25,732 bases of DNA. Origin: Betaproteobacteria bacterium (lineage in GTDB: Bacteria > Pseudomonadota > Gammaproteobacteria > Burkholderiales > SG8-41). Positions 1,923-19,680 of the stretch are shown piece after piece. Within the stretch, counting starts at the first letter, position 1. Each line of letters starts with the position of its first letter. The notes beneath the pieces were generated by a model, which did no database searches, was not told where the DNA came from, and worked only from the letters and a program-made list of their open reading frames with translations. The translations under genes were made by a program, and so were the position numbers. The stretch is taken from positions 1 to 25,732 of the forward strand of contig JANXSE010000085.1 in NCBI GenBank assembly GCA_025356695.1, read 5' to 3'.

Positions 1923-1956
1923 CTGTCACGGCTTTGTCATGCGGTGCCTTTACTCT
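1923..1956 (+). promoter_or_regulatory. Pho-box-type promoter of dgkA
   Basis: CTGTCAC-GGCT-TTGTCAT at 1923-1940 closely matches two PhoB half-sites on an 11-base period. After exactly 10 bases comes TACTCT (1951-1956), placed where a -10 element sits in PhoB-activated promoters, about 27 bases before the dgkA ATG. There is no -35 hexamer, as expected for this promoter class. Confidence 0.7.
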
Positions 1957-1982
1957 TCGCGCAGACAACCGATGGCGCCGCG

Positions 1983-2348
1983 ATGGAAAGCCCGTACAAA
2001 GGCAGGACCGGTCTCAAACGCGTGTGGAACGCGTTGTTCTACTCGTTCGACGGACTGGCCGCCGCATTCCGTCATGAGGACGCTTTCCGCCAGGAAACAG
2101 GACTCGCCTGCATATTGATACCGACGGCACTGTATCTGCCGCTCGACATCCCCATGAAATGCGCGATGATCGCCAGCGTCGTCGCCGTGCTGGTGGTGGA
2201 ACTGCTCAATTCCGGCATCGAGGCCGTCACCGACCGCGTGTCGCTCGAAGACCATGCGCTGGCCAAACGCGCCAAGGATCTGGGCAGCGCGGCGGTACTG
2301 TTATCGGTGGCCAACGTGATCATCGTCTGGTTGCTGGCCCTGCTTTAG
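1983..2348 (+). CDS. dgkA: Diacylglycerol kinase, integral membrane DgkA type
   Basis: A 121-residue protein of DgkA length, with three hydrophobic segments (roughly residues 41-57, 61-76 and 104-121). It carries the family signature ELLNSGIEAVTDR (73-85) followed by RAKDLGSAAVLL, which matches the E. coli DgkA active-site region. DgkA phosphorylates diacylglycerol to phosphatidic acid in the inner membrane using ATP. Here it follows a strong Pho-box-like promoter and sits just upstream of the glycosyltransferase-plcP operon. It could therefore salvage diacylglycerol released by PlcP in competition with the glycosyltransferases. The ATG at 1983 was chosen because the protein then begins, as in relatives, shortly before KGRTGLKRVWNA. 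The nearby ATG at 1972 is out of frame. No good Shine-Dalgarno is visible. Confidence 0.93.
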   Translation: MESPYKGRTGLKRVWNALFYSFDGLAAAFRHEDAFRQETGLACILIPTALYLPLDIPMKCAMIASVVAVLVVELLNSGIEAVTDRVSLEDHALAKRAKDLGSAAVLLSVANVIIVWLLALL

Positions 2349-2360
2349 CAGCAGACGCGG

Positions 2361-2394
2361 TTTTCACAAAACCGTCACGCCAGCGTCATCAAAT
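2361..2394 (+). promoter_or_regulatory. Tandem Pho-box-like array upstream of the glycosyltransferase-plcP operon
   Basis: Three 7-base units on an 11-base period: TTTTCAC (2361), CCGTCAC (2372) and GCGTCAT (2383), with 4-base spacers AAAA and GCCA. Ten bases after the second unit is TCAAAT (2389-2394), a 4/6 match to TATAAT. The array overlaps a perfect inverted repeat, CGGTTTT-CAC-AAAACCG (2358-2374), which could instead be a weak dgkA terminator; the two readings are not exclusive. Confidence 0.55.
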
Positions 2395-2423
2395 TTTCTT
2401 GCTGGCCGGCCAGAATCGCGGCA

Positions 2424-3644
2424 ATGCAAGACGCACCGATCATCTTTGAACACCTGCCGGAAACGCGCCGCACCTTGCGCGTCGCCGTTGTTACCGAAAC
2501 CTATCCGCCGGAAATCAATGGTGTTGCTATCACGATCCAGCACATGATCGAGGGCCTGCGCGCGCGCAATCACGAAGTTCAGCTGATCCGCCCGCGGCAA
2601 AACCGCACTGACAGCGCCACCGTCGAACCGCGTTTTGAGGAAGTCCTCGGGCGCGGCGTTTCGATCCCGCGTTATAACAATCTGAAGATGGGGTTGCCGG
2701 CCAAACAGGCGCTGGCGCGGCTGTGGTCGCTGCACCGCCCGGACATCGTGCACATCGTTACCGAGGGCCCGCTCGGCGCGTCAGCACTCGCCGTCGCCCT
2801 CAAACTGCGCATTCCCTGCTGCAGCGATTTCCACACCAACTTCCACAGCTATAGCCGCCATTACGGCGTCGGCTGGCTGCGCAAACCCATCGCCGGGTAC
2901 CTGCGCCGCTTTCACAACAAGGCGCACTGCACGATGGTGCCGACGCATTCGCTGCGTAACGAACTGGAGGGCCACGGCTATCTGAATCTGCGCGTGGTGC
3001 CGCGCGGCGTCGATACGCAGCAGTTCACACCGCGGCGGCGTAGCGAGAGCCTGCGCAAACGCTGGGGCATTGCCGATGGCCAGACCGTCGCCCTCTATGT
3101 GGGCAGGCTTGCGCCGGAAAAAAATCTGGCGGCGGTCCTCAAGGCCTACACCACGATGCGCGCGGCGGCGCCGGGCGTGCGCCTGGTCATGGTCGGCGAC
3201 GGGCCCGAACGCAAAGCACTGCAGGCACAGGACGCGAGCATCATCTTCGCCGGCATGCAAGCGGGCGATGCGCTGGCCGAACACTACGCCTCCGGCGACA
3301 TTTTTCTCTTCCCCAGCACCACCGAAACCTTCGGCAACGTGACGGTCGAGGCGCTCGCCAGCGGACTCGCCGTCGTCGCTTACGATTACGCCGCCGCCGC
3401 GGAATACATCAGGCACGGCGAAAACGGCCTGCTCGCCCCCGTCGACAACACCCGCGAGTTCGTCAACCTCGCAGTACGGCTCGCCTGCCATCAACCGCGC
3501 ACCGCTGCGCTGGGCCGCGCAGCGCGTGCCTCAATCGAGCCGTTTGAATGGAACACGGTCGGCGCCGCCTTTGAAACCGCGCTACGCGAAGTCATCGCCG
3601 CACAACAACGCCCGGAGGCAATCGACGACCGCTTGTCGGCCTGA
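2424..3644 (+). CDS. GT4-family glycosyltransferase, probable diacylglycerol glycosyltransferase (Agt-like)
   Basis: A 406-residue GT-B fold enzyme. The N-terminal acceptor domain has TETYPPEINGVA (24-35) and SDFHTNFHSYSRHYG (134-148). The C-terminal nucleotide-sugar domain has LYVGRLAPEKN (224-234) and the E-x7-E motif ETFGNVTVE (301-309). The plcP-type gene starts 14 bases after its stop, making an operon. In several proteobacteria a GT4 enzyme beside PlcP glycosylates the diacylglycerol that PlcP releases, giving phosphorus-free glycolipids under phosphate limitation; that role is inferred here from context. The start is supported by gap-free alignment with the N-terminus of the paralogue at 14987-16222 (IIFEHLPE versus IILEQIPA). 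The sugar donor is unknown. Confidence 0.88.
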   Translation: MQDAPIIFEHLPETRRTLRVAVVTETYPPEINGVAITIQHMIEGLRARNHEVQLIRPRQNRTDSATVEPRFEEVLGRGVSIPRYNNLKMGLPAKQALARLWSLHRPDIVHIVTEGPLGASALAVALKLRIPCCSDFHTNFHSYSRHYGVGWLRKPIAGYLRRFHNKAHCTMVPTHSLRNELEGHGYLNLRVVPRGVDTQQFTPRRRSESLRKRWGIADGQTVALYVGRLAPEKNLAAVLKAYTTMRAAAPGVRLVMVGDGPERKALQAQDASIIFAGMQAGDALAEHYASGDIFLFPSTTETFGNVTVEALASGLAVVAYDYAAAAEYIRHGENGLLAPVDNTREFVNLAVRLACHQPRTAALGRAARASIEPFEWNTVGAAFETALREVIAAQQRPEAIDDRLSA

Positions 3645-3658
3645 GAACGACTTCATCC

Positions 3659-4492
3659 ATGGACACCGCCACACACAACCGTACAACTACCCCTGAAAAA
3701 ACCGCACAAAAAGTACGCTCGCTGTTTCTCTCCGACATCCACCTCGGTTCGCGTGCCTGCCGCGCCGAGGAACTGCTCGAATTCCTGAAAGACTACGAAG
3801 CGTCGAACATTTTCCTGCTCGGCGACATCGTGGACTTCTGGGCGATGAGCCGCAGCCTTTACTGGCCGGCGCAGCACAACACAGTGGTACAGAAATTCCT
3901 GAAAAAAGCGCGCCATCATGTGCATGTCTACCTCATACCGGGCAACCACGACGAGGCACTGCGCGAATACGTCGGCAGTTCGTTCGGCGACATCACACTC
4001 GTGCGCGACCACGTGCACATCGCCGCCGACGGCCGCCGCTACGCACTGCTGCACGGCGACGAATACGACCAAGTGACCACCTACCACCGCTGGGTATCGG
4101 TGCTGGGGGACGTGTCGTACACGCTGCTCGTGCATCTGAACCGGCTGTTATCGCTGCTGCGGCGCAAAATCGGCGTCAGCGGCCACTGGTCGCTGGCCGA
4201 CTATGCCAAGCGCAACGTGCTGCGCGCGGTCAGCTTCATCGGCGACTTTGAAAACTCGGTGGTGCGCAACGTCAAGAAACGCGGTCTCGATGGCGTCATT
4301 TGCGGCCACATCCACACGCCGGTGATCAAACGCATCGACGGACTGACCTATATCAACTGCGGCGACTGGGTCGACAGCTGCACCGCCATCGTTGAGCATT
4401 TCGACGGCCGCATGCAATTGGTGCGCTGGACGCGCCCGCTGGCGGACGCGGCGCCGCGAGTGGTCGCAATCGCCGAAGCGCCCCTGCGTTGA
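3659..4492 (+). CDS. plcP: PlcP-type metallophosphoesterase (phosphate-stress phospholipase C)
   Basis: A 277-residue calcineurin-like phosphoesterase with the metal-site motifs in order: LSDIHLG (24-30), LGDIVDFW (54-61), PGNHDEALREY (94-104), LLHGDEYD (130-137) and CGHIHTPV (215-222). The length and the tract SRSLYWPAQHNTVVQKFLKKAR resemble the PlcP family of rhizobia and marine heterotrophs rather than true LpxH, which is shorter. PlcP hydrolyses phosphatidylcholine or phosphatidylethanolamine to diacylglycerol plus a phospho-headgroup at the inner membrane during phosphate starvation. Its position, 14 bases after a GT4 gene, 1.3 kb from dgkA and behind a Pho-like promoter, supports this over UDP-diacylglucosamine hydrolysis. 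No signal peptide is present. LpxH-like activity remains the alternative. Confidence 0.82.
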   Translation: MDTATHNRTTTPEKTAQKVRSLFLSDIHLGSRACRAEELLEFLKDYEASNIFLLGDIVDFWAMSRSLYWPAQHNTVVQKFLKKARHHVHVYLIPGNHDEALREYVGSSFGDITLVRDHVHIAADGRRYALLHGDEYDQVTTYHRWVSVLGDVSYTLLVHLNRLLSLLRRKIGVSGHWSLADYAKRNVLRAVSFIGDFENSVVRNVKKRGLDGVICGHIHTPVIKRIDGLTYINCGDWVDSCTAIVEHFDGRMQLVRWTRPLADAAPRVVAIAEAPLR

Positions 4493-4539: not shown

Positions 4540-4573
4540 CTGTAACATATTTGTAATGCATATTTGTTAAGCT
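4540..4573 (+). promoter_or_regulatory. Pho-box-type promoter of ppk
   Basis: CTGTAAC-ATAT-TTGTAAT at 4540-4557 is two PhoB-like half-sites with an AT-rich 4-base spacer. Ten bases later is TAAGCT (4568-4573) in the -10 position, giving a leader of about 55-60 bases before the ppk ATG. The box abuts a 14-base palindrome (4527-4540) downstream of plcP. Confidence 0.72.
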
Positions 4574-4638: not shown

Positions 4639-6723
4639 ATGGCAAAACCAGCGCTCGCCGCAGAGTTGTATCTGAACCGTGAACTCGGCCTGCTCGCGTT
4701 CAACCGCCGTGTGCTGGCGCTGGCCGAAGACCGCCGGGTGCCTGCGCTCGAACGCCTGCGCTACCTCTGTATCGTCGACAGCAATCTCGACGAATTCTTC
4801 GAAATCCGCGTCGCCGGCCTGAAAGAGGAAATTGCCGCCGGCGCGCCGCCCGGCCCCGACGGCGTGCCGCTCGACCTGGTGTTCCGCAATATCGCGCGGG
4901 CGACCAAGACGCTGGTGGCACACCAGTACGAAATCCTCAACAACGACGTGCTGCCGCAGCTGTCGGCAGAGGGCATCCGCATCCTGCGCCGGACGAAGTG
5001 GAACGCCGCGCAAAAAGCGTGGGTGCGCGATTATTTTTTCCGCGAACTGATGCCGGTGCTGACGCCGATCGGCCTCGACCCCTCGCATCCGTTTCCACGC
5101 CTCCTGAATAAGAGCCTCAACTTCGTGGTCGAACTCGAAGGCAAGGACGCCTTCGGCCGCAAGTCGAGCATGGCGATTGTGCAGGCGCCGCGCGTGCTGC
5201 CGCGCGTGATCGCGCTGCCGCGCTCAATCGCCGGCTGCGAATACGGCTTCACCTTCCTGTCGTCGATCCTGCATGCGCATGTCGGCGAACTGTTCCCGGG
5301 CATGGCGGTGGTCGGCTGTTACCAATTCCAGCTCACGCGCAACAGCGACCTCTACATCGACGAGGAGGAACTGCGCGAACTGAAAAGCCTGCGCAAGGCC
5401 TTGCAGGGCGAACTCTCGCAGCGCCAGTTCGGCGACAGCGTGCGGCTGGAAGTGGCCGACGAATGCCCGCGCCGGCTCGCCGACGCGCTGCTGCAGCAGT
5501 TCGGCCTCGGCGAAATCGACCTCTACCAGATCAACGGGCCGGTCAATCTGGTGCGCCTGCTGCAGATTGCCGACCGCGTCGACCGCCCGGCGCTGAAGTT
5601 CCCGGCCTTCGTGCCGGGCATGCCGCGCGACCTGCTGCGTTACTCCAGCGTCTTCGACTGCATACGCCGCAGCGACATTCTGCTGCACCATCCTTTCCAG
5701 TCGTTTCTGCCGGTGATCAATTTCATCGAACAAGCCGCGCACGATCCGCAGGTCGTCGCCATCAAGCAGACCGTTTACCGCACCGGCGCGCAGTCGGCGA
5801 TGATGGAACTGCTGATGCAGGCCGCGCGCAACGGCAAGGCGGTCACCGTCGTCGTCGAGCTGATGGCACGCTTCGACGAAGAGGCCAACATCAACTGGGC
5901 GCAGCGGCTGGAAGAAGCCGGCGCCCACGTCATCTACGGCGTGGTCGGCCATAAAACACATGCGAAGATGGCGCTGGTGGTACGGCGCGAGGGAACAACC
6001 CTGCGCCGCTACGTGCATCTGGCGACCGGCAACTACCATTCGCGTACCGCCACGCTCTACACCGACTTCGGCCTCTTCACCTGCAACGAGGAGATCGCGC
6101 AGGACGTCAACGAGGTGTTCATGCAGCTCACTGGTCTGGGCAAGGCGAGCAAGCTCAGGCACCTGTGGGAGGCCCCCTTCACGCTGCATCAACGCGCCAT
6201 CAAGGCGATCCAGGCCGAAACGCGTAATGCCGCCGCCGGCCGCAAGGGCCGCATCGTCGCGCGCATGAACGCGCTACTGGAGCCGGAAATCATCACCGCG
6301 CTCTACGCGGCGTCGCAAGCCGGCGTCAGCATCGACCTCATCGTGCGCGGCGTCTGCGCGCTGCGCCCCGGAATGCCGGGCGTTTCGGAAAACATCCGCG
6401 TGCGCTCGGTGCTCGGCCGCTTTCTCGAACACAGTCGCGTCTTCTACTTCTACAACGGCGGCGCCGAGGACGTTTATCTGTCGAGCGCCGACTGGATGGA
6501 CCGCAATTTCTTCCGTCGCATTGAAATCTGCTTCCCGGTGCTTGAACCGCGCCTGAAACGGCGCGTTATCCGCGAAGGGCTCACCGCCTGCCTCGCCCGC
6601 GACGTCGAGGCCTGGGAAATGGATGCCAACGGCGAATATCACTTCCGCAAGGGCAAACGCGGCCGCGGCGGCCATTCGCAGAACGTCCTACTCGACCTGC
6701 TTGCCGCCAAGACCGGCACCTGA
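4639..6723 (+). CDS. ppk: Polyphosphate kinase 1
   Basis: A 694-residue PPK1 of normal family length. The N-terminal domain is recognisable from LYLNRELGLLAFNRRVL and VDSNLDEFFEIRVAG. The PLD-like catalytic domains carry HKTHAKM, with His441 aligning to the autophosphorylated His435 of E. coli, and LEHSRVFYF, with His598 aligning to His592. PPK1 polymerises the gamma-phosphate of ATP into polyphosphate and runs in reverse to make ATP. A Pho-like promoter lies upstream; ppx is separate and on the opposite strand about 2 kb away, so ppk and ppx are not co-transcribed as they are in E. coli. The ATG at 4639 gives the usual N-terminus. The Shine-Dalgarno is weak. Confidence 0.97.
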   Translation: MAKPALAAELYLNRELGLLAFNRRVLALAEDRRVPALERLRYLCIVDSNLDEFFEIRVAGLKEEIAAGAPPGPDGVPLDLVFRNIARATKTLVAHQYEILNNDVLPQLSAEGIRILRRTKWNAAQKAWVRDYFFRELMPVLTPIGLDPSHPFPRLLNKSLNFVVELEGKDAFGRKSSMAIVQAPRVLPRVIALPRSIAGCEYGFTFLSSILHAHVGELFPGMAVVGCYQFQLTRNSDLYIDEEELRELKSLRKALQGELSQRQFGDSVRLEVADECPRRLADALLQQFGLGEIDLYQINGPVNLVRLLQIADRVDRPALKFPAFVPGMPRDLLRYSSVFDCIRRSDILLHHPFQSFLPVINFIEQAAHDPQVVAIKQTVYRTGAQSAMMELLMQAARNGKAVTVVVELMARFDEEANINWAQRLEEAGAHVIYGVVGHKTHAKMALVVRREGTTLRRYVHLATGNYHSRTATLYTDFGLFTCNEEIAQDVNEVFMQLTGLGKASKLRHLWEAPFTLHQRAIKAIQAETRNAAAGRKGRIVARMNALLEPEIITALYAASQAGVSIDLIVRGVCALRPGMPGVSENIRVRSVLGRFLEHSRVFYFYNGGAEDVYLSSADWMDRNFFRRIEICFPVLEPRLKRRVIREGLTACLARDVEAWEMDANGEYHFRKGKRGRGGHSQNVLLDLLAAKTGT

Positions 6724-6735: not shown

Positions 6736-6769
6736 GCGTCACGCGGTTGCAACACGCCCGCGCTAACCT
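6736..6769 (+). promoter_or_regulatory. Candidate Pho-like promoter of the EAL/GGDEF gene
   Basis: GCGTCAC-GCGG-TTGCAAC (6736-6753) followed after 10 bases by TAACCT (6764-6769). The spacing equals that of the stronger sites in the window, but the half-sites are more degenerate, so chance is a real alternative. Confidence 0.4.
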
Positions 6770-6833: not shown

Positions 6834-8687
6834 ATGGACGCCGCATTGCTGGCCATCAAGCCGCTCGATATTCCCGCGCCGCGCTACCGCGCGCGCAATC
6901 TCGCCGAATCACAGGCCGTGCAGCATGAATTGCAGATCATCGTGCGCAACATCATTGAACAGCGCCTCTTGCACGCGGTGTTGCAGCCGATCGTCGCCAC
7001 CCGCAGCGGCGAAATCATCGGTTACGAGGGCCTGATCCGCGGCCCGGTCGACAGCCCGCTGCACATGCCGGCGTGGCTGTTTTCGGTCGCCGAGCGCTTC
7101 GGTCTGCAATCGGCGGTCGAATTGCTGAGCCGCGAGATCGTCATTGAAACATTCGCCGGCATGTCACTGCCGGGCAAACTGTTTCTCAATGTCAGCCCCG
7201 AACTGCTGACGCAATCGTCCGCCTCCAGCGGCAATCTGGTGGCCTTCCTGCAGAACGTCGGACTGCCGCCCGAGCGCGTCATCATTGAACTCACGGAAAA
7301 CCAGCCGACTCCGGATCTGGCGAAAATGCGCGAGGCGCTGCTGCACTACCGCGGGCTCGGCTTCGAAGTGGCGATCGACGATCTGGGCGAAGGCTTCTCT
7401 TCGCTGCGCCTGTGGTCGGAACTGCGCCCCGAGTTCGTCAAGATCGACAAGCACTTCATCCACGGCGTGTGCGAAGACAACCTCAAGCTGGAGTTCGTCC
7501 GCGCCATCCAGCAGATCGCCTCGTGCTGCGGTTCGCACGTGATCGCCGAAGGCATCGAAACACGCCAGGACTTCCGCGTCATCCGCGATCTGGGCATCGC
7601 CTACAGCCAGGGTTACTTCATCGCCAAGCCCGATGCGATCCCGGCGCGCGAGGCCACCGCCGAAGCGCGCAAGGCCGTGCAGGATTGCGGCATCGCCGTC
7701 TACCCGGGCATCGAGCGCGTGTCGAACCGCGCGGTGAAGGCGCGCAAGCTGATGATCGCGGTCGAACCGGTCGCCCCCGAAACCGAAAACGACCGCGTCT
7801 GCGAACTGTTCGAAAACGATCCGGATTTGATTTCACTGCCGGTGGTAAAAGACCGCGTGCCGGTCGGCCTGATTCACCGTTATGCGCTGATCGACCGCTT
7901 CGCACGGCCGTTCCGCAAGGAGATTTACGGCCGCCGCCCCTGCACCATCTTCATGCAGACGGCGCCGCTGGTGGTCGAGCACGATCTGAGCATCGAGGAA
8001 CTGAGCGCGGTCGTCTCCGAAAGCGACCCGCGCAACCTCGCCGACGGCTTCATCATCACCGACGGCGGCTTTTATCTCGGCATCGGCACCGCGCGCGATC
8101 TCATCCGCGAAATCACGCAGATGCAGATCAACGCCGCGCGTTATGCCAATCCGCTGACGCTGCTGCCGGGCAACGTGCCGATCTCGGAACACATCGAACG
8201 CCTGCTCAACGCCGGCGCGCGCTTCAGCGCCTGCTATTGCGACATCGACAATTTCAAGCCCTTCAACGATGTCTTCGGCTATCAGATGGGCGACGAAGTG
8301 ATCCGTCTGGCGGCGCGCGTGCTGGCGGAAAACTGCGATCCCGAACGCGATTTCATCGGCCACATCGGCGGCGACGACTTCATCGTCATGTTCCAAAGCA
8401 CGGATTGGGAGGGCCGCTGCAGGGCGGCGCTAAAGCAGTTCGCGGAATTGATGCCGTCCTTGCTGAACGAGGACAACCGCGCGCGCGGGCATTACGTCAG
8501 CGAGGACCGGCGCGGGGTGGAAACCACCTACCCGTTCCCGACCGTTTCGATCGGCGCCGTCGAAGTGCCGGCCAACACCATCACTACGCATCTGGAGGTG
8601 TCGAGCGCGGCGACTCATGCCAAGAAGCAGGCCAAGCGCGAAACGGGCAACAGCTTTTTCGTAGAGCGACGCAACCTCTTTGCGTAA
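6834..8687 (+). CDS. EAL - CBS-like - GGDEF signalling protein (cyclic di-GMP turnover)
   Basis: A 617-residue cytoplasmic protein. The EAL domain (about 45-270) has GYEGLIRG (EGL at 65-67), LNVSPE, IELTE (151-155), AIDDLGEGFSSL (DD at 182-183), FVKIDK, AEGIE (238-242) and QGY. The metal and substrate residues expected for c-di-GMP phosphodiesterase are therefore present. A middle region (about 300-430) reads like a degenerate CBS pair. The GGDEF domain (about 440-617) has CDIDNFKPFNDVFG and GGDDF (512-516), where Asp replaces the usual Glu of GGDEF; no RxxD inhibitory site precedes it. Cyclase activity is thus uncertain and a GTP-sensing role is possible. The start is set by GGAG 7 bases before the ATG at 6834. 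It follows ppk and converges on ppx. Confidence 0.9.
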   Translation: MDAALLAIKPLDIPAPRYRARNLAESQAVQHELQIIVRNIIEQRLLHAVLQPIVATRSGEIIGYEGLIRGPVDSPLHMPAWLFSVAERFGLQSAVELLSREIVIETFAGMSLPGKLFLNVSPELLTQSSASSGNLVAFLQNVGLPPERVIIELTENQPTPDLAKMREALLHYRGLGFEVAIDDLGEGFSSLRLWSELRPEFVKIDKHFIHGVCEDNLKLEFVRAIQQIASCCGSHVIAEGIETRQDFRVIRDLGIAYSQGYFIAKPDAIPAREATAEARKAVQDCGIAVYPGIERVSNRAVKARKLMIAVEPVAPETENDRVCELFENDPDLISLPVVKDRVPVGLIHRYALIDRFARPFRKEIYGRRPCTIFMQTAPLVVEHDLSIEELSAVVSESDPRNLADGFIITDGGFYLGIGTARDLIREITQMQINAARYANPLTLLPGNVPISEHIERLLNAGARFSACYCDIDNFKPFNDVFGYQMGDEVIRLAARVLAENCDPERDFIGHIGGDDFIVMFQSTDWEGRCRAALKQFAELMPSLLNEDNRARGHYVSEDRRGVETTYPFPTVSIGAVEVPANTITTHLEVSSAATHAKKQAKRETGNSFFVERRNLFA

Positions 8688-10467: not shown

Positions 10468-11223
10468 ATGCTGCAAAGTCTGGCACGGCCCCGCGTGCAA
10501 CCGGCGCCTTCCCTTGACGTTTCCATCGCCCGCAACGAACACGAGGTGTTTGAAGCGCAACGCCTGCGCTACAAGGTGTTCGCCGAGGAAATGGGCGCCC
10601 GCGTCAATCCGACCGACGCCGGCATCGACTGCGACATGTTCGACGCGCATTGCGAGCACCTGATCGTGCGCGACACCGTGACCGGCCAGGTGGTCGGCAC
10701 CTACCGCATCCTCACCCCGTCGGCGGCGCGCCGCATCGGCGGCTACTATGCCGAGGAGGAATTCGACCTCACGCGCCTCAACCACCTGCGCGGCCAGATC
10801 GTCGAAATCGGCCGTTCCTGCGTGCATATGAACTATCGTTCCGGCGGCACCATCGCCCTGCTGTGGTCGGGCATTCTGCGTTACGTGCAGACCCACGGTT
10901 ACCAATACATCATCGGTTGCGCGAGTGTGGGCATGGCCGACGGCGGCCAGGGCGCCGCCTCGATCTACCGCCGCCTGCAGGCGACCAGCCTGTGTCCGAT
11001 CGAATATCGCGCCTTCCCGCGCTGCGAGCTGCCGCTCGACGCCTACGAGAACACCATCACTGCGATCAAACTGCCGCCGCTGATCAAGGGCTATCTGAAA
11101 GTCGGCGCCCAGGTCTGCAGCGCGCCGGCATGGGACCCGGATTTCAACACCGCGGACCTGCTGATGATGCTGCCGATCGCGCGCATGGATCCGCGTTACC
11201 CGCGCCACTTCCTGCGCGCCTGA
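10468..11223 (+). CDS. olsB: OlsB-like GNAT-fold acyltransferase (ornithine lipid synthesis)
   Basis: A 251-residue acyltransferase of the OlsB / hemolysin-like GNAT family. Characteristic segments are LRYKVFAEEMGAR (33-45), FDAHCEHLIV (58-67), VGTYRIL (76-82) and the core EIGRSCVH (113-120). OlsB transfers a 3-hydroxyacyl group from acyl-ACP to the alpha-amino group of ornithine, making lyso-ornithine lipid, which OlsA then acylates. Ornithine lipid lacks phosphorus and is made by many proteobacteria when phosphate is short. That fits the neighbouring phoX (convergent, 14 bases between stops) and the Pho-like promoter. No olsA is in the window. The start is set by GGAG 7 bases upstream of the ATG at 10468. 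N-acyl-homoserine or another N-acyl-amino-acid synthase activity is the alternative. Confidence 0.78.
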   Translation: MLQSLARPRVQPAPSLDVSIARNEHEVFEAQRLRYKVFAEEMGARVNPTDAGIDCDMFDAHCEHLIVRDTVTGQVVGTYRILTPSAARRIGGYYAEEEFDLTRLNHLRGQIVEIGRSCVHMNYRSGGTIALLWSGILRYVQTHGYQYIIGCASVGMADGGQGAASIYRRLQATSLCPIEYRAFPRCELPLDAYENTITAIKLPPLIKGYLKVGAQVCSAPAWDPDFNTADLLMMLPIARMDPRYPRHFLRA

Positions 11224-13160: not shown

Positions 13161-13206
13161 GATCGGAATGCTCCTGTCGGTGGAAGTTGACGGCAATCAA
13201 CAGGAA

Positions 13207-13240
13207 AGCCTAGCGGCGGCACGTGACAAAACGATGACAA
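13207..13240 (-). promoter_or_regulatory. Pho-box promoter of phoX
   Basis: On the minus strand TTGTCAT-CGTT-TTGTCAC (13240-13223) is the best Pho-box match in the window, both half-sites fitting CTGTCAY except the first base. After exactly 10 bases comes TAGGCT (13212-13207) in the -10 position. Confidence 0.8.
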
Positions 13241-13343: not shown

Positions 13344-13748
13344 ATGAAACCTTACGTCATGATCACGCGGCACGTGGCACCCGCCGCCGTCGAACTGCTG
13401 ACCAGTGTCTGCGACATCCTGCCGCGCGTTGCCATCGCCGCGTCGCAACGCGGCGATTTTTCGCTGGTCGCCGCCAGCGCCGACGCGCTGCTGATGGCGA
13501 CGCCGGAACGCATCGATGCCACGCTACTGCACCGCTTTCCGCGCCTGCGCGTAATCGCCTGCACCTACCGCCTGCCCGAACACATCGACGTCAGCGCCTG
13601 CACGCGCCGCGGTGTCTGGATCACCAACATCGCTACGCGCCGGGATGGCGACGACGCCGAAATCGAGGCGGCACGCAATATTCTTGACGTCCTGGGCGGC
13701 GACATTCCACGCGGCGCAATGAACGACGTTCTCCAGCCGGCGGCCTGA
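13344..13748 (+). CDS. Short D-2-hydroxyacid dehydrogenase-like protein lacking the NAD-binding domain
   Basis: A 134-residue protein. Residues 1 to about 100 resemble the N-terminal substrate domain of the 2-hydroxyacid/phosphite dehydrogenase family (MITRHVAPAAVELL, LLHRFPRLRVIACT, HIDVSACTRRGVWITN). The end (EIEAARNILDVLGGDIPRG) resembles the family's C-terminal tail. The roughly 200-residue Rossmann domain with the GxGxxG loop and the Arg/Glu/His catalytic residues is absent. The junction falls near codons 100-107 (about 13641-13664), and the frame stays open. A strong AAGGAG sits 7 bases before the ATG, so translation looks intact. It cannot be a conventional dehydrogenase. The nearest full-length pattern I recall is PtxD (phosphite dehydrogenase), which would suit the phosphorus context, but that assignment is a memory-based comparison. 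A domain remnant or a binding-only protein are the options. Confidence 0.72.
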   Translation: MKPYVMITRHVAPAAVELLTSVCDILPRVAIAASQRGDFSLVAASADALLMATPERIDATLLHRFPRLRVIACTYRLPEHIDVSACTRRGVWITNIATRRDGDDAEIEAARNILDVLGGDIPRGAMNDVLQPAA

Positions 13749-13761: not shown

Positions 13762-13795
13762 CCGCCTCCAAACCGTAACACCGGACTGTTACAGT
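13762..13795 (+). promoter_or_regulatory. Weak Pho-like promoter before the second plus-strand glycosyltransferase
   Basis: CCGCCTC-CAAA-CCGTAAC (13762-13779), then 10 bases, then TACAGT (13790-13795, 4/6 to TATAAT). The second half-site and the spacing are good, the first half-site is poor. An overlapping inverted repeat GTAAC...GTTAC (13775-13792) may also be an operator. Confidence 0.33.
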
Positions 13796-13822: not shown

Positions 13823-14992
13823 TTGCGCATCCTCTACATCTCAGACGTCTACTTTCCGCGCATCAACGGGGTCTCGACGTCGATGCAGACCTTTCGCCGC
13901 GAATTGCAGGCACTCGGTCACGAGATCGTCGTCGTCGCACCCGACTACGCACCGACGCCGCAAACTGCCGACGACGGCATCATCCGCATACCGGCACGCC
14001 CGGTGCCGCGCGATCCCGAAGACCGGCTGATGCGGCGGGCGGGCCTGCAAACCCTGCGCCGGCATCCGGCGCTGCACGGCATCGACCTCGTGCATATTCA
14101 AACCCCGTTCGCCGCGCACTACGCCGGTCTGCGCATCGCGCGCCAACTCGGCGTGCCCTGTGTCGCCACCTACCACACGTTTTTTGAAGAATATCTTTAC
14201 CACTATGTGCCGTTTGCACCGCGCGCGCTGATGCGCGCCTGCGCGCGGATATTCTCGCGGCGCCAGGGCAATCAGGTCAATGCGCTGGTGGTGCCGTCGC
14301 GCGCCATGCTCAAAGCACTGACTGCCTATGGTGTGAGAACTGCCATGACCATACTGCCGACCGGCGTCCGCATGCAGGAACTTCGCGGCGGCAATGGCGC
14401 CGCCTTCCGGCAGTCACATGGAATCGCGCCGGAACGACCGTTGCTGGTGCACGTTGGCCGCGTCGCCTTTGAGAAGAACATCGATTTTCTGCTGCACATG
14501 CTGGTGCAGGTGCGCACCCGCCATCCGGACATTCTGTTGTTGATCGCCGGCGAGGGGCCGGCGCTAGCGCAATTGAAAGCGCTGTCGCACAGCCTGCTGC
14601 TCGACGGCAACGTGCGGTTCATCGGCTATCTCGACCGCGCCACCACGCTCCTCGATTGCTATTCTGCGGGCAACGCCTTCGTCTTTGCATCGCGTACAGA
14701 AACACAAGGCCTCGTGCTGCTTGAAGCGATGGCACTCGGCGTGCCGGTCGTTTCGGTCGCCGCCATGGGCACGCTCGACATTCTCGACGCTGGCCGCGGC
14801 GCACTGGTAGCGCCCGGCGAAGAGCGCGCGTTTGCGGACACCGTCTGCCGGTTGCTCACCTCCCCCGAATTGCAACAAAAATTATCCACCGAAGGATGCG
14901 CCTACGCTGCGGAGTGGAGCGCGACGGTGCAGGCCGCGCGGCTGGCCGATTTATATGCAGCGCTTATCGCGCAACACAGAATCATTTCATGA
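13823..14992 (+). CDS. GT4-family glycosyltransferase, resembles diacylglycerol alpha-glucosyltransferase
   Basis: A 389-residue GT-B enzyme. The N-terminus MRILYISDVYFPRINGVSTS is followed by ATYHTFFEEYLYHYVPFAP (near 114-132), a pattern shared with 1,2-diacylglycerol 3-glucosyltransferases. The donor domain has VHVGRVAFEKNIDFLL and the E-x7-E motif ETQGLVLLE. It would add a sugar to diacylglycerol or another lipid at the cytoplasmic membrane face. It is clearly more distant from the other two GT4 enzymes here than those are from each other, so it may use a different acceptor or donor. TTG at 13823 is taken as start because the conserved MRIL begins there; no Shine-Dalgarno is visible. Its last 6 bases overlap tail-to-tail with the minus-strand glycosyltransferase. 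Confidence 0.85.
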   Translation: MRILYISDVYFPRINGVSTSMQTFRRELQALGHEIVVVAPDYAPTPQTADDGIIRIPARPVPRDPEDRLMRRAGLQTLRRHPALHGIDLVHIQTPFAAHYAGLRIARQLGVPCVATYHTFFEEYLYHYVPFAPRALMRACARIFSRRQGNQVNALVVPSRAMLKALTAYGVRTAMTILPTGVRMQELRGGNGAAFRQSHGIAPERPLLVHVGRVAFEKNIDFLLHMLVQVRTRHPDILLLIAGEGPALAQLKALSHSLLLDGNVRFIGYLDRATTLLDCYSAGNAFVFASRTETQGLVLLEAMALGVPVVSVAAMGTLDILDAGRGALVAPGEERAFADTVCRLLTSPELQQKLSTEGCAYAAEWSATVQAARLADLYAALIAQHRIIS

Positions 14993-16222
14993 GGTAACAG
15001 CGGCGACGGCGGCAGTGCCCGCCCCTGCCGGCACTGCACACGGTGCGTCTGCCACCGCCAGCAGCAAATGTTCGAATTGTTCGACCACCCGCGCCCACGC
15101 CATCTGCTCGGCGCTGACCCGCGCGGCGGCGCCAAGCGCGGCAATGCGGTTGCGCGTGCTCGCCAGCGCCGCCGCAAGATGCACAAATTCATGACCGTCA
15201 TCGAAACCAACCAGCAGGCCGTTGCGGCCGTGTTCGATGTACTGGGCGGCCGCCGCGTAATCGTAGGCGACGACTGCCAGACCGCTGGCCATTGCCTCGA
15301 TGGTCACGTTGCCGAAGGTTTCAGTCAGGCTGGGAAACAAAAACACGTCGCCCGAGGCATAGTGCGCGGCAAGGTCGGCCCCCTGTCGCGTGCCGGCGTA
15401 GATCGCCGCCGGGCAGCGCGTCTGCAATTGTGCGCGTGCCGGGCCGTCGCCGACAAAAACCAGCTTCGCGCGCGGCTGCGTCTGCCTGATGCGTTCGAAT
15501 GCGCGCACCACTGGTTCAAGGTTCTTCTCCGGCGCCAGACGCCCGACGTGCAGCAGAACAACGTCATCCGGCGTCGCGCCCCAGCTCGCGCGCAACGTTT
15601 CGCTGCGATGTGCCGGCGCAAAGCGAATGGTATCGACGCCCCGCGCAACGACGCGCAGATTGCGAAACCCGCGCGCGGCAAGTTCCTGCCGCAGCGCCTC
15701 CGTGGGCACCAGCGTCAGCAACGCGCGGTTGTGAAACCTGCGCAGATAGGCGGCGATCGGTTGCCGCAACCAGCCGATGCCGTAGTGCCGGCTGTAGGCG
15801 TGAAAGTTGGTGCGAAAGTCAGAGCTCACGGGGATCCTGAGTTTGTGCGCCGCCTGCAGCGCCGACCAGCCGAGCGGCCCCTCGGTGACGATATGCACGA
15901 CATCCGGCCGCGCACGCGACCACAGGCGGACCAGCGCCTGCCTCGCCGGCAAACCCATCTTCAGTCCCGGATAACGCGGAATCGGCAAACCGCGGCACAA
16001 CACCTCATGAAAGCCATGGCTCTCAGCCGCGGTATCGGTGCGACTTTGCCGCGGACGCAAGAGCTGGATCTCATGGTTGCGTGCGCGCAGTCCTTCGACA
16101 AACTGCGCCGCGGTGTTGGCAACGCCGTTCACTTCCGGCGGATAGGTTTCGCTGACAAAGGCAATACGCAGTGATTTTCTCATGGCAGGAATTTGCTCGA
16201 GGATGATGAAATCGCTTTCCAT
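14987..16222 (-). CDS. GT4-family glycosyltransferase, paralogue of the plcP-linked enzyme
   Basis: A 411-residue GT-B enzyme strikingly similar to the one at 2424-3644. Shared stretches include VHIVTEGPLG, SRHYGIGWLR (GVGWLR in the other), VGRLAPEKNL, LAAHYASGDVFLFPS and SGLAVVAYDYAAAAQYI, and ETFGNVTIE supplies the E-x7-E motif. Alignment without gaps from the first residues supports the ATG at 16222. Two near-identical copies in one locus suggest a duplication with divergence in sugar donor or a two-step (mono- then di-glycosyl) lipid pathway. The C-terminus ends in an Ala/Val/Thr-rich tail absent from the paralogue. It overlaps the convergent glycosyltransferase by 6 bases and diverges from the Mpo1-like gene. 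Confidence 0.9.
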   Translation of the reverse strand: MESDFIILEQIPAMRKSLRIAFVSETYPPEVNGVANTAAQFVEGLRARNHEIQLLRPRQSRTDTAAESHGFHEVLCRGLPIPRYPGLKMGLPARQALVRLWSRARPDVVHIVTEGPLGWSALQAAHKLRIPVSSDFRTNFHAYSRHYGIGWLRQPIAAYLRRFHNRALLTLVPTEALRQELAARGFRNLRVVARGVDTIRFAPAHRSETLRASWGATPDDVVLLHVGRLAPEKNLEPVVRAFERIRQTQPRAKLVFVGDGPARAQLQTRCPAAIYAGTRQGADLAAHYASGDVFLFPSLTETFGNVTIEAMASGLAVVAYDYAAAAQYIEHGRNGLLVGFDDGHEFVHLAAALASTRNRIAALGAAARVSAEQMAWARVVEQFEHLLLAVADAPCAVPAGAGTAAVAAVTS

Positions 16223-16228: not shown

Positions 16229-16262
16229 ATGATGCCGGCCCCGCGAGAAACTTTAATGACAG
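16229..16262 (-). promoter_or_regulatory. Candidate Pho-like promoter of the minus-strand glycosyltransferase
   Basis: On the minus strand CTGTCAT-TAAA-GTTTCTC (16262-16245) begins with a perfect PhoB half-site. Ten bases on is CATCAT (16234-16229, 4/6 to TATAAT). Transcription would start almost at the ATG, implying a leaderless or near-leaderless message. Confidence 0.42.
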
Positions 16263-16286
16263 CCGGCAGGTCGCCGGCGGCTGTCA
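16257..16286. repeat. Inverted repeat between divergent promoters
   Basis: Arms TGACAGCCG (16257-16265) and CGGCTGTCA (16278-16286) with a 12-base spacer. Each arm supplies a CTGTCA half-site pointing outward, one toward each divergent gene. The plus-strand reading CTGTCAC-GAAT-GTGCAAA (16281-16298) has only one good half-site and no clear -10, so a Pho role for the membrane-protein gene is tentative. Confidence 0.6.
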
Positions 16287-16379
16287 CGAATGTGCAAACC
16301 CGCGGTAAACAAACCGCAGCATTGTGGCGTCAACATGCGTGCTGCAACATTTTTTCCGACGCCCGGTAAAGGAGATGCA

Positions 16380-16985
16380 ATGAAGGAATTTCTCGAAGCG
16401 CTCAGAATTCAGCGCTGGGACGACCACCGCTACTACCATCACAGCCGCATCAACCAGTCGCTGCATTTCGTCAGCGCCCTGAGCTTTCTCGCCGCCTATG
16501 CGCTGATTTTCACCGACCCGGTGGCAGCCGCGCTGATCGGCTGGCTCGCCGCCATGGTCAGCCGCCAGATCGGCCACTTCTTCTTCGAGCCGAAAGGCTA
16601 TGACGAGGTCAACCAGGCCAGCCACGAACACAAGGAATCGATCAAGGTCGGTTACAACCTGAAACGCAAAATCGTGCTGCTGACGATCTGGGCGCTGGCG
16701 CCAGTGGTGCTCTACTTCGACCCGCTGCTATTCGGTATTTTTCCGACCGGTGACGGCACGACCTTCGTGCAGAAAACCGGCGTGATCTGGCTGTCGATTG
16801 GCATTGGCGGCCTGCTGTTCCGCACCGTCCATCTGTTCTATCTGAAGGACGTGCGGACCGGACTCGTCTGGCTGGCCAAGATCCTGACCGACCCGTTCCA
16901 CGATCTGCTGCTTTATTACAAGTCGCCCTTTTATCTCCTGCGCGGCGAGCTGCTCGATCCGGCACTGCACAAGCAGCACGCCTGA
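16380..16985 (+). CDS. Small polytopic membrane protein, possibly Mpo1-like (DUF962)
   Basis: A 201-residue protein with about four hydrophobic segments (roughly 30-45, 47-62, 98-120 and 134-156). Histidines cluster in YYHHSRINQSLHF (18-30) and QIGHFFFEPKGYDE (63-76), followed by ASHEHKESIK. The H...N-x3-H and GHxxxE arrangement recalls the Mpo1/DUF962 family, whose yeast member is an iron-dependent dioxygenase acting on 2-hydroxy fatty acids; this assignment is tentative. The start is fixed by AAGGAGATGCA immediately before the ATG at 16380. It diverges from the glycosyltransferase and ends just before a terminator. A role in tailoring hydroxy-fatty-acid lipids such as ornithine lipids is speculation from context. 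Confidence 0.6.
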   Translation: MKEFLEALRIQRWDDHRYYHHSRINQSLHFVSALSFLAAYALIFTDPVAAALIGWLAAMVSRQIGHFFFEPKGYDEVNQASHEHKESIKVGYNLKRKIVLLTIWALAPVVLYFDPLLFGIFPTGDGTTFVQKTGVIWLSIGIGGLLFRTVHLFYLKDVRTGLVWLAKILTDPFHDLLLYYKSPFYLLRGELLDPALHKQHA

Positions 16986-17008
16986 GCGAACCACGGCCCG
17001 CCGTGTCC

Positions 17009-17038
17009 ACGCCCCGTGCTTCTGCGGGGCGTCTTTTT
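17009..17038 (+). terminator. Rho-independent terminator after the Mpo1-like gene
   Basis: A perfect 8-base stem, ACGCCCCG / CGGGGCGT (17009-17016 and 17025-17032), with an 8-base loop is followed by C and five T. It sits 24 bases after the stop codon and overlaps the last codon of the convergent aminotransferase. Confidence 0.88.
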
Positions 17039-18695
17039 ACAAAGTGCCGAAACGTTGAGCGATCATTTCACGCAGTATGCCGCGCCGTATCGCCTTGTTG
17101 GTGAGCGCCGCATCGCACCACCACCAGCCGTCGCGATGCATCGCCTGCGCCGCGCTGACGAAGCGACTGGCCACCGCCGCAAAATCAGTTTCGGTGTAAT
17201 TCAGACTGAAGATCAAACGCCCGCTGCCCACCCAGCTCAGTGCCAGCCCCTCAGCGCGCAGGTAATGCTGCAACATCCAGTTGTAACGCGACGGCCGCAG
17301 GTAATAGACCGTCCAGATCGACGACAGGTTGGCCACCTGCACTGGCAGTCCGGCTTCGAGCAAACGCAGATTGAGCTGTTCGGCGCGCCGGTTCCACAAC
17401 ACATCGAGATTTTCATAAAGCGCGTGCACCTGCCGGGTTTCCATGCGTTCGAGAAAGACCTGCATCGCGCCCATCACGTACGGATGCGCATTGAAGGTGC
17501 CGCGCGCGAAACAGATGTCGATGGGCCGTTCGTCGCGATAGCGCTTCATCAGCGCGGCGCGCCCGCACACCACACCCACCGGCAGTCCGCCGCCGAGCGT
17601 TTTGCCGTAGGTCACCAGGTCGGCCTTCACGCCGAAATATTCCTGCGCACCGCCTGGCGCCAGTCTGAAACCGGTGAAGACCTCGTCGAAGATCAGCACG
17701 ATGTTACGTTCGCTGCACAGCGCGCGCAGTTCGCACAGCCATGCCGTATATCGCGCGCGGTCGAACTGCGCGCGCCGCGAACTGTCGATCAGCGCGGAAT
17801 CGCCCGGCGCACTGCCGTTCGGGTGCAGCGCCTGCAGCGGGTTGACCAGCACGCAGGCAATGTCGCGGCGGCGATGCAGCACCCGCAGCGTATCGGCGTC
17901 CATCTCTTTAAGCGTGTAGGTTTCATGCGCCGGCAGCGGATTGCCGACGCCCGGCTGCACGTCGCCCCACCAGCCGTGATACGCGCCGCAAAAGCGCACC
18001 AGATGCGAGCGCCGCGTGTGATAACGCGCCAGCCGCACGGCCTGCATCACCGCCTCGGTGCCCGACATGTGAAACGACACCTCGTCGAGCCCGGATATTT
18101 CGCGCAGACGCCGCACGTTGCCGGCAACCACTGGGTGATAACTGCCCAGCACCGGGCCGAGAGCACGCACCCGCGCCGCGCCATCCTCGATGCAGGATTT
18201 GTAGAAATCGTTGCCGAACACGTTCACACCGTACGATCCTGTGAGATCGTAAAACTGGTTGCCGTCGAGGTCGGTCACCATCACACCCCACGACGACTGC
18301 AGATAGGAACCTCCCTGCAGATGCTCGCGCACATGGCGGCTGAATTGAAACGGCACGCGGTAGGCGCCGGTGAACTGCAGATCAGAAACGCCCTCGGCGG
18401 TTTTTGCAGTCAGCGCAGCGGATTTTCCAAAACGCTCGCGGTACAGCGCGGCAAGCCGCAGGAAACCGGCGCGGCGCTGCACCACAACATTGGGCGGCGC
18501 ACCGTCGCAGCAGAAAAAGCGCGACTCATCGTATTCGTAATGCGGCACCAGCGCGGCGATGCGGCGTGCCATCCGCGCATGCCCGGCCAACGACGGATGT
18601 TTCGCCTTCGACAGTTCAAGGCGCGTTTTGAGCTTCGGCAGCGCCAGTGCCAAAGCCAGCGCACCCAACGCGTACATGATTGTGGTTTCGTCCAT
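17037..18695 (-). CDS. Membrane-anchored class III aminotransferase (glutamate-1-semialdehyde aminomutase-like)
   Basis: A 552-residue PLP enzyme. Residues 5-20 (TIMYALGALALALALP) form a likely membrane anchor, followed by about 110 residues of unassigned N-terminal domain. The fold-type I core then shows SGTEAV (211-216), GAYHGW (237-242), LIFDEVFTGFR (334-344; Asp337 to the pyridine nitrogen) and YGKTLGGGLPVG (363-374; Lys365 as the PLP lysine). The core resembles HemL but the protein is about 120 residues longer and membrane-tethered, so tetrapyrrole synthesis is unlikely. It is divergent from psd, which hints at an amino-lipid or head-group substrate; this is inference. GGAGG 6 bases before the ATG at 18695 sets the start; the open frame reaches 18758 but lacks such a site. 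Confidence 0.87.
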   Translation of the reverse strand: MDETTIMYALGALALALALPKLKTRLELSKAKHPSLAGHARMARRIAALVPHYEYDESRFFCCDGAPPNVVVQRRAGFLRLAALYRERFGKSAALTAKTAEGVSDLQFTGAYRVPFQFSRHVREHLQGGSYLQSSWGVMVTDLDGNQFYDLTGSYGVNVFGNDFYKSCIEDGAARVRALGPVLGSYHPVVAGNVRRLREISGLDEVSFHMSGTEAVMQAVRLARYHTRRSHLVRFCGAYHGWWGDVQPGVGNPLPAHETYTLKEMDADTLRVLHRRRDIACVLVNPLQALHPNGSAPGDSALIDSSRRAQFDRARYTAWLCELRALCSERNIVLIFDEVFTGFRLAPGGAQEYFGVKADLVTYGKTLGGGLPVGVVCGRAALMKRYRDERPIDICFARGTFNAHPYVMGAMQVFLERMETRQVHALYENLDVLWNRRAEQLNLRLLEAGLPVQVANLSSIWTVYYLRPSRYNWMLQHYLRAEGLALSWVGSGRLIFSLNYTETDFAAVASRFVSAAQAMHRDGWWWCDAALTNKAIRRGILREMIAQRFGTL

Positions 18696-18712
18696 CTGCA
18701 ACCTCCAGCTTT

Positions 18713-18746
18713 CATGTACCTCACACAGTTTACAAACTGATGAAAA
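18713..18746 (-). promoter_or_regulatory. Weak Pho-like promoter of the aminotransferase; overlaps a palindrome
   Basis: On the minus strand TTTTCAT-CAGT-TTGTAAA (18746-18729), then 10 bases, then TACATG (18718-18713). It overlaps the perfect palindrome CAGTTTACAAACTG (18726-18739), which abuts the psd ATG and could be an operator for both divergent genes. The half-sites are degenerate. Confidence 0.33.
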
Positions 18747-19618
18747 TACGTTTCGCACTGGAAAGATTCATTCTGCAGGAGGACATCAACTTCCTGCTCA
18801 CCAACCGCATCCCACGCCGGCTGCTGACGCTCTTCATGGGCTGGTTCAGCAAAATCGAGCAGCCGCTGGTGCGGAATATCTCAATCGCCTTGTGGAAGCG
18901 GTGCGCCAACCTTGCTCTAGAAGAAGCGAAAAAATCGCGCTTCACCAGTCTGCACGACTGCTTCATCCGCGAATTGAAAGACGGCGCGCGACCGGTCGAT
19001 GTCGACCCCGCAGTGCTGACAAGCCCGTGCGACGCCATCGTCGGGGCCTGCGGGCCGATCGAAGGTACCCGTGTGCTCCAGGCCAAGGGGTTTCCCTATA
19101 CCCTGGAAGACCTGCTCGGCGAAGCCGCCACAATCGACCTCGTGCGCGACGGCTGCTACGTCACGCTGCGCATCACGGCCAGCATGTACCACCGCTTTCA
19201 TGCACCGCATGACTGCCGCGTCGAACGCGTGACGTATTTCTCCGGCGACACCTGGAACGTCAACCCGGTCGCGCTCAAACGCATCGAACAGTTGTTCTGC
19301 AAAAACGAGCGCGCGGCGATCTTGGCACGGTTGACTGCGGATGGCACACCGTTCGTGCTGGTGCCGGTAGCGGCAGTGCTGGTCGCCAGCATACGGCTGC
19401 ACTGTCTCGACGCACTGCTGCACCTGCGCTATCGCGGCCCCAATGTCATTGCCTGCGATGCGGTCTATCGCAAGGGCGCAGAAATGGGCTGGTTCCAGCA
19501 CGGCTCGACCATCATCGTCTTTGCCCCGCGCGGCTTCCGGCTCTGCAGCGGTCTGCATGAAGGCGTGCGCATCCGCGCCGGCGAACGCCTGCTGGAGGCC
19601 GCCGTCACGAAACCGTAA
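18740..19618 (+). CDS. psd: Phosphatidylserine decarboxylase proenzyme
   Basis: A 292-residue Psd. Conserved blocks are FTSLHDCFIRELKDGARP, SPCDAIVGACG (Asp98), YHRFHAPHDC (149-158), FSGDTWNVNP and the self-cleavage site WFQHGSTIIVF (252-262). The canonical LGST is HGST here; the scissile Gly-Ser pair is intact, with Ser256 becoming the pyruvoyl group. Psd decarboxylates phosphatidylserine to phosphatidylethanolamine at the inner membrane. Finding it in this lipid block next to a membrane-anchored aminotransferase is unusual; a specialised second psd is possible, but other copies cannot be seen. The ATG at 18740 begins MKIRFALERFILQEDINFLL, which aligns with family N-termini. No obvious Shine-Dalgarno. 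A Pho-like box for the next gene overlaps its stop codon. Confidence 0.92.
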   Translation: MKIRFALERFILQEDINFLLTNRIPRRLLTLFMGWFSKIEQPLVRNISIALWKRCANLALEEAKKSRFTSLHDCFIRELKDGARPVDVDPAVLTSPCDAIVGACGPIEGTRVLQAKGFPYTLEDLLGEAATIDLVRDGCYVTLRITASMYHRFHAPHDCRVERVTYFSGDTWNVNPVALKRIEQLFCKNERAAILARLTADGTPFVLVPVAAVLVASIRLHCLDALLHLRYRGPNVIACDAVYRKGAEMGWFQHGSTIIVFAPRGFRLCSGLHEGVRIRAGERLLEAAVTKP

Positions 19619-19635
19619 CGTCAGTGCAGTACATT
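19602..19635 (+). promoter_or_regulatory. Pho-box-type promoter of the cNMP-binding protein, within the psd 3' end
   Basis: CCGTCAC-GAAA-CCGTAAC (19602-19619) spans the psd stop codon. Ten bases on is TACATT (19630-19635, 4/6 to TATAAT). A further TTGTCAT at 19635-19641 stays on the same 11-base register (33 bases from the first unit). Part of the box is psd coding sequence, so its conservation is constrained by that gene too. Confidence 0.58.
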
Positions 19636-19680
19636 TGTCATTGTAGCGGGCCGGGGCGCCCGCCCATCCGGAGAGCAACA

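Follow-up and report, generated by a model that had tools for sequence, protein, structure and literature searches.

Does a short stretch of betaproteobacterial DNA hold a set of lipid genes that answer together to phosphate starvation, most of them from promoters of their own? The question is raised by contig JANXSE010000085.1 of a Betaproteobacteria bacterium (assembly GCA_025356695.1), of which 25,732 nucleotides, here called the window, were analysed. A first-pass annotation had claimed ten promoters of one shared geometry in it: a pair of 7-bp half-sites 4 bp apart, then 10 bp, then a -10-like hexamer. All ten strings are present in the window. Seven of the promoters, those before dgkA, ppk, olsB, phoX, a glycosyltransferase gene (GT4c), an aminotransferase gene and a gene for a protein with a cyclic nucleotide monophosphate (cNMP)-binding domain, are supported as PhoB-type sites by the comparisons below; that before the glycosyltransferase-phosphoesterase pair GT4a-plcP is plausible; the box before a further glycosyltransferase gene (GT4b) is decayed in this genome, and that before an EAL/GGDEF gene is unsupported. 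The stretch as a whole is very probably a PhoB-activated phosphate-starvation island, with the mechanism and lipid roles proposed below; the case for several promoters draws on a matrix derived from Escherichia coli, a background of upstream regions, an unbiased test of the spacing and the footprints of the sites in relatives.

PhoB-type promoter sites and their conservation

The half-site matrix used to score candidate sites comes from a species other than the host: its eight PhoB sites are from E. coli, and each was confirmed in the genome of K-12 MG1655. The first background comprised 403 upstream regions of 723 called open reading frames (ORFs), taken from 40 stretches of 20 kb (800 kb) of relatives' DNA. 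It was biased downward, as three of the 20 stretches from the genome of the closest relative (G001; C30, C51 and C64) sat off pattern matches at contig starts. Those three were replaced by the contig starts, and 17 further stretches from genomes G003 and G005 were added, giving 506 regions, 914 ORFs and 1.005 Mb. The window promoters are mostly ranked against the 506 regions, and the orthologue, spacer and wider olsB and dgkA tests against the first 403; the ranking of the promoters is unchanged between the two, and the highest background box is 14.6 in both. Counts of the pattern over whole genomes with at most one mismatch (27 against 20 for a reversed control in G001, 12 against 7 in G002) fail to separate signal from chance, and the matrix and background were used instead for this reason.

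By box score alone, four sites exceed all 506 background regions: those of dgkA (1923..1956, plus strand, CTGTCAC-GGCT-TTGTCAT-N10-TACTCT, box 20.9), phoX (13207..13240, minus strand, TTGTCAT-CGTT-TTGTCAC-N10-TAGGCT, 20.1), ppk (4540..4573, plus strand, CTGTAAC-ATAT-TTGTAAT-N10-TAAGCT, 18.6) and the aminotransferase gene (18713..18746, minus strand, TTTTCAT-CAGT-TTGTAAA-N10-TACATG, 15.8). The tandem half-sites before GT4a-plcP (2361..2394, plus strand, TTTTCAC-AAAA-CCGTCAC-N10-TCAAAT), with a third half-site, GCGTCAT, inside the spacer, have a box score of 12.3, which 7 of the 506 regions equal or better. The corresponding figures are 11.2 and 14 for GT4c (16229..16262, minus strand, CTGTCAT-TAAA-GTTTCTC-N10-CATCAT), and 8.4 and 42 for olsB (10405..10438, plus strand, GTTTCAC-CGCC-GTGTAAC-N10-TAACGT). 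The cNMP-gene promoter is predicted at 19602..19635 (plus strand, CCGTCAC-GAAA-CCGTAAC-N10-TACATT). Once the -10 at a spacer of 10 is included, none of the 506 regions scores as well as dgkA, one as well as ppk and one as well as phoX, two each as well as GT4a, GT4c and the aminotransferase, four as well as the cNMP gene and five as well as olsB; eight of the ten claimed sites lie in the top 1% (cut 11.07). Only 6 nt separate the end of the GT4c -10 from the annotated ATG, and either the GT4c mRNA would be nearly leaderless or the true start lies further downstream; the predicted transcription start of the aminotransferase gene is likewise very near the ATG.

In the window's 25.7 kb there are three sites scoring at least 18, as against two in 1.005 Mb of relatives' DNA (none in the first 800 kb), and five scoring at least 15 (one of them within phoX), as against 13. 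When the upstream regions of island genes in the window and its relatives are pooled, 28 of 85 reach 15, compared with none of 403 background regions and none of 39 upstream of control genes; at a threshold of 12 the numbers are 37, 6 and 3, respectively.

Since the first-pass annotation had itself warned that its weaker boxes were biased by the search, the spacing was examined with boxes chosen without regard to the -10. In each of the 85 island regions (12 from the window, 73 from relatives) the top box was taken by box score alone, and the -10 was then scored at spacers 3-21. Among the 56 regions whose top box scored at least 9, spacer 10 gives a mean -10 score of +0.9, and every other spacer a mean in the range -4.0 to -9.5; a score of at least 0 is reached by 37 of the 56 at spacer 10 and by 15 at the next best, 21. 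This lesser peak, one 11-bp unit further on, would be expected from arrays that have a third half-site. The background curve (32 boxes of at least 9) is flat. In the window alone, five of six boxes scoring at least 9 have a non-negative -10 at spacer 10. The spacer of 10 is thus not a product of the earlier search.

The shared geometry of the island is the canonical geometry of PhoB promoters. The E. coli Pho-box consensus is CTGTCATNNNNCTGTCAT (PMC11828411, available in part, as were the other papers cited here), and the box mostly takes the place of the -35 element (PMC4971064). The E. coli phoA, phoB, pstS, phoE, phoH and ugpB promoters have the same two 7-bp repeats, 4 bp apart and 10 bp from the -10. 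In six of seven E. coli promoters, phnC being the exception, spacer 10 gives the top -10 within the range 6-14; in pstS, the -10 hexamer falls inside a second box. Compared with these promoters, the half-sites of the island are often TGTAAC, TGTAAA or CGTCAC, in GC-rich DNA, and some sites have a third half-site. Because the geometry is the standard one, it supports control by PhoB, yet it brings no novelty.

Scores from the window by itself did not suffice for GT4b, olsB or the cNMP gene, and orthologous promoters were brought in for this reason. The nearest relative found, CAISYC010000039.1 of an uncultured beta proteobacterium (L001, in G001; OlsB identity 86%), has the gene order of the window without the EAL/GGDEF gene and phoX; the place of the cNMP gene lies beyond the end of its contig. 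Orthologous promoters carry boxes at matching offsets with changed letters. The dgkA arrangement is retained in both relatives scored. All seven phoX relatives have a box and -10 matched by at most 4 of 403 background regions (the gene start is uncertain in four), and three of four ppk relatives have one matched by at most 7. The olsB site recurs at -63 or -64, with different letters, in five of six relatives, and elsewhere in betaproteobacteria 44 of 77 olsB upstream regions fall in the top 5% of the background. Of 11 relatives, 5 have the GT4c site at -40, as in the window. The cNMP site is kept in both relatives, one of which (L002) has it in a different gene context as TTGTCAC-GAAC-CTGACAC-N10-TAGATT. 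For the aminotransferase only the second half-site was tested, as the first is the psd start codon read in reverse: YTGTMA followed by 10 bp and TA occurs in 21 of 37 orthologous upstream regions, against a shuffle mean of 0.2 (maximum 2), none on the opposite strand and no more than 5 at any other spacer.

Three further regions behave differently. The GT4b box (13762..13795, plus strand, CCGCCTC-CAAA-CCGTAAC-N10-TACAGT) scores -3.6, and 385 of 403 background regions are as good; its first half-site is lost in the window. In five of six relatives the best box plus -10 of this gene lies at -61 to -69 (matched by 2 to 32 of 403), with that of L158 at -141, and in four of the six a box better than the window's is found at -61 to -69, for example CTGTCGC-AAAA-CGGTAAT-N10-TAACGT. 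For GT4a, two half-sites persist in both relatives scored and share the register of the second and third of the window; the box scores are low (4.8 and 7.3), and 131 of 403 background regions match one of the two relatives. A weak half-site array, not named by the first-pass annotation among its sites, precedes the Mpo1-like gene (16281..16325, plus strand, CTGTCAC-GAAT-GTGCAAA-CCCG-CGGTAAA-N10-CATTGT, box 5.8). By box, 27 of 35 orthologous upstream regions of this gene are in the top 5% of the background and 14 in the top 1%. Its half-sites are conserved and the spacing is not, which leaves a PhoB promoter plausible for this gene.

Regulator and competing explanations

Both relatives searched have a PhoB scoring above the curated cut-off. 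The phoB of G001 belongs to a run of ORFs that opens with CTGTCAC-CGCG-TTGTAAC-N10-TACCAT before a pstS-like ORF and lies on a different contig from the island (PhoB was named by its model, the pstS-like ORF and its neighbours by us from sequence); in G002, phoB is about 1.5 kb from psd on the same contig. These loci bear on whether the boxes could serve another regulator of the OmpR/PhoB family, with a similar direct repeat and a role in some other envelope stress. A motif alone is insufficient to name the protein that binds it, and G001 does hold a second response regulator above the PhoB cut-off (C19, 325 bits) as well as many weaker matches to the PhoB model. However, the identical motif and spacing stand before pstS in G001 and in the E. 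coli Pho promoters, the gene content is centred on phosphate and the G002 block is close to phoB, and we regard such a regulator as highly improbable.

It could also be that only the classical Pho genes (phoX, ppk, dgkA and olsB) are PhoB targets and that the other boxes are chance matches collected by a spacing-biased search. This would fit the EAL box (6736..6769, plus strand), which scores 1.8, with 277 of 506 background regions as good and 47 still as good when the -10 is included, outside the top 1%; and it would fit the GT4b box, which with its -10 is equalled by 64 of 506 regions at the best site and by 123 of the first 403 at the site originally named. It would fit the overlap of two boxes with psd codons, the start codon for the aminotransferase and the final codons for the cNMP gene. 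The arsR gene, outside the island and with no Pho logic, has a strong -10 and is matched by only 2 of 506 regions, the same rank as GT4c. The -10s of the aminotransferase gene are poor, with the final T missing: a stricter hexamer (T or C, then A, then T at position 6) is found in 1 of 37 upstream regions. Against chance, the peak at spacer 10 arises without any spacing being required, the aminotransferase and Mpo1-like orthologues depart from their shuffled and background expectations as given above, and L002 has the cNMP box in other surroundings. Despite the overlap, the aminotransferase and cNMP boxes are rescued as candidate promoters when other genomes are compared, and we judge restriction to the classical genes unlikely.

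The EAL, GT4b, arsR, codon-overlap and -10 results just given weigh against a broad PhoB-controlled island, and so do several others. The olsB and cNMP sites pass only when the -10 is included or through comparison. The orthologous genomes are related to one another, so the counts of conserved sites overstate their independence. None of 18 dgkA upstream regions from other betaproteobacteria is in the top 5% of the background, so dgkA seems to have been recruited to the regulon within this lineage. In the 44 olsB boxes found elsewhere, spacer 10 is barely preferred (-3.6 against -4.0 at 8). The ppk box is absent in L158, and two aminotransferase upstream regions (L119 and L120) have no box. For the Mpo1-like gene, a half-site followed by 10 bp and TA is present in only 5 of 36 regions, with two other spacers reaching 11 and 9. 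Finally, the scan of 20 window proteins turned up no phoBR, pst or olsA, and the description of the island as a near-complete phosphate-starvation lipid regulon was overstated.

Weighing these points together, we retain the PhoB-activated island as the most probable account. Phosphorylated PhoB would bind TGTMA-type direct repeats with an 11-bp period that replace the -35 element, 10 bp from a sigma-70 -10. Its targets would be dgkA, ppk, olsB, phoX, GT4c, the aminotransferase gene and the cNMP gene, and probably GT4a-plcP and the Mpo1-like gene.

Island genes and membrane lipids

A Pfam scan of 20 window proteins defines the families concerned. Next to its promoter lies dgkA (1983..2348, plus strand; diacylglycerol kinase, PF01219, 107 bits), followed by GT4a (2424..3644, plus strand; PF13692, PF00534, PF13439), whose two top NCBIfam models are lipid glycosyltransferases, both far under their cut-offs. 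The adjoining gene (3659..4492, plus strand; PF00149) encodes a calcineurin-fold phosphoesterase that is PlcP-like, a name we infer. Assignment of this protein to LpxH was rejected (55 bits against a cut-off of 190), and a separate LpxH above the cut-off in three of four relatives also counts against it. Polyphosphate kinase is encoded by ppk (4639..6723, plus strand; PF17941, PF13090, PF02503, PF13089), and the scan also identified ppx. The olsB gene (10468..11223, plus strand; PF13444) encodes an ornithine N-acyltransferase-like protein with OlsB (NF052555) as its best model, at 179 bits under the cut-off of 320. On the minus strand are phoX (11238..13162; alkaline phosphatase PhoX, PF05787, 584 bits) and GT4c (14987..16222; PF13692, PF13439), and on the plus strand GT4b (13823..14992; PF00534, PF13439) and the cNMP-binding-domain gene (19681..20037; PF00027).

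When phosphate runs short, phospholipids would be cleaved to diacylglycerol by the PlcP-like enzyme, and the GT4 enzymes would convert the diacylglycerol to glycolipids, while OlsB would start ornithine lipid synthesis. Surplus diacylglycerol would go back to phosphatidic acid through DgkA, PhoX would free phosphate, and Ppk and Ppx would handle polyphosphate. In sum, the genes seem equipped to replace membrane lipids that contain phosphorus with lipids that do not.

Much of this is already known: the type of promoter, the PlcP-Agt route and the OlsB route. Pho boxes are described in plcP neighbourhoods of marine bacteria (PMC4796936) and for PlcP and two Agt glycosyltransferases of Pseudomonas aeruginosa (PMC8528852). 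PlcP-Agt remodelling in Phaeobacter, SAR11 and P. aeruginosa involves the same neighbours, a glycosyltransferase and a phospholipase-C-type enzyme with a Pho box, as the island does at 2424-4492, where the metallophosphoesterase adjoins GT4a behind tandem half-sites (2361-2394) with a moderate box. Compared with those systems, the island brings together three GT4 genes, dgkA, olsB, phoX, ppk and ppx. Pho boxes likewise precede olsB in Burkholderia sensu lato (PMC7814305) and in Acinetobacter (PMC11828411); there, in the text available, the olsB promoter is treated singly, whereas here it is part of a multi-promoter island. The available part of PMC7649339 does not state that dgkA belongs to the Pho regulon.

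Other genes of the stretch need brief mention. The EAL-CBS-GGDEF gene (6834..8687, plus strand; by Pfam) was not found at the syntenic place in relatives; neither G001 nor G007 has it there, and the 50% homologue that G001 carries adjoins the second PhoB-like regulator (L165). At 13344..13748 (plus strand), hacd2 encodes 134 residues, the catalytic half only of a 2-hydroxyacid dehydrogenase; it is kept in seven relatives at 50-72% identity and is probably not decaying, given this conservation. No promoter is claimed for it, as the first half-site is missing in the window (box -8.1); upstream lie a lone TGCAAC half-site and TATCCT at spacer 10, and relatives keep a TGCAAC-like half-site with a -10 at that spacer. 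The island is bordered by an arsenic-type group (20839-22770, minus strand) of an SBF-family transporter, identified by its domain, and arsC-like and ArsR-like ORFs named by us. The transporter is 95% identical in G007, where island genes are 66-91% identical, which suggests mosaic descent. A metagenome-assembled genome titled Klebsiella pneumoniae (L012) carries an OlsB 60% identical to that of the window, among betaproteobacterial matches, and the title looks wrong.

The aminotransferase-psd-Mpo1 block

The first-pass annotation had also missed a conserved block of three genes within the island: a gene for an Mpo1-like (DUF962) membrane protein (16380..16985, plus strand; PF06127, 23.2 bits, just under the cut-off of 24), one for a class III pyridoxal-phosphate aminotransferase with an N-terminal helix (17037..18698, minus strand; PF00202) and one for a long-form phosphatidylserine decarboxylase, psd (18740..19618, plus strand; TIGR00163, 151 bits, cut-off 111.75). 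The three are present in the same 13 of 60 relatives; the aminotransferases counted match at 53% identity or more over nearly the full length, and the best matches listed in the other 47 are partial, at 46% or less. Among 300 genomes of the order, a draw that repeats 7 of the 13, the aminotransferase is found in 34 and psd and the Mpo1-like gene in 35. The three sets are identical except for G099, which has no aminotransferase match at the cut-off used, and the order psd-aminotransferase-Mpo1 is contiguous by coordinates in 34 of 34 genomes. Outside the block, each of these 13 relatives has another psd match, which is fragmentary in G002 and G009. A psd promoter at the box found at 18709 in the psd orientation (score 13.7) was rejected, its -10 at spacer 10 scoring -10.6.

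Among solved structures, 6kfm, from the aminotransferase domain of mycosubtilin synthase, is closest to the island enzyme in both sequence and fold; its sequence match scores 163 bits over 390 residues, and that of the top semialdehyde aminomutase 118. We take this domain to aminate a beta-keto fatty-acyl chain. Unlike that domain, the island enzyme is free-standing, with an N-terminal helix and no carrier-protein fusion. Its best NCBIfam names (glutamate-semialdehyde aminomutase) are far under their cut-offs, and lysine 365 is invariant in 17 aligned homologues. The predicted structure is of moderate confidence (predicted local distance difference test (pLDDT) 69.5) and has a helix at residues 3-31 that could be a membrane anchor. 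The model of the Mpo1-like protein is of low confidence (pLDDT 65) and none of its fold matches went below E 1.3. Three relatives have a second Mpo1-like paralogue (L152:11847-12431, L153:164-766 and G001:C19:20737-21327), which is 56% identical and, in two of them, near the island. In G050, an ORF that by eye resembles a lysophospholipid transporter (L157:6408-7604) runs with psd, which again points to membrane lipids.

The three genes are a single conserved unit, whose most likely role is to make or alter a further aminolipid. A fuller proposal is possible, although doubtful: an undescribed PhoB-controlled pathway of uncultured betaproteobacteria for making or modifying a new phosphorus-free aminolipid, in which a membrane-anchored mycosubtilin-type transaminase would aminate a fatty-acyl (beta-keto) chain or a lipid aldehyde, the second Psd would decarboxylate an amino-acid-type head group and the Mpo1-like protein would oxidise a hydroxy acyl chain. 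The block adjoins the island genes and is not mentioned in the available text of the PlcP-Agt literature; nor did the literature listings searched yield a link of DUF962/Mpo1, psd and an aminotransferase to phosphate starvation.

Within the literature searched, the new parts of this system are its dense assembly, the link to dgkA and the co-inherited aminotransferase-psd-Mpo1 block. The available PlcP-Agt papers concern marine bacteria and Pseudomonas, and the island would extend the same logic to uncultured betaproteobacteria. Most of its lipid genes lie behind a predicted PhoB-type site of their own, and dgkA would tie in the recycling of diacylglycerol. The block, in turn, offers a defined three-gene target in the search for what may be a new lipid class.

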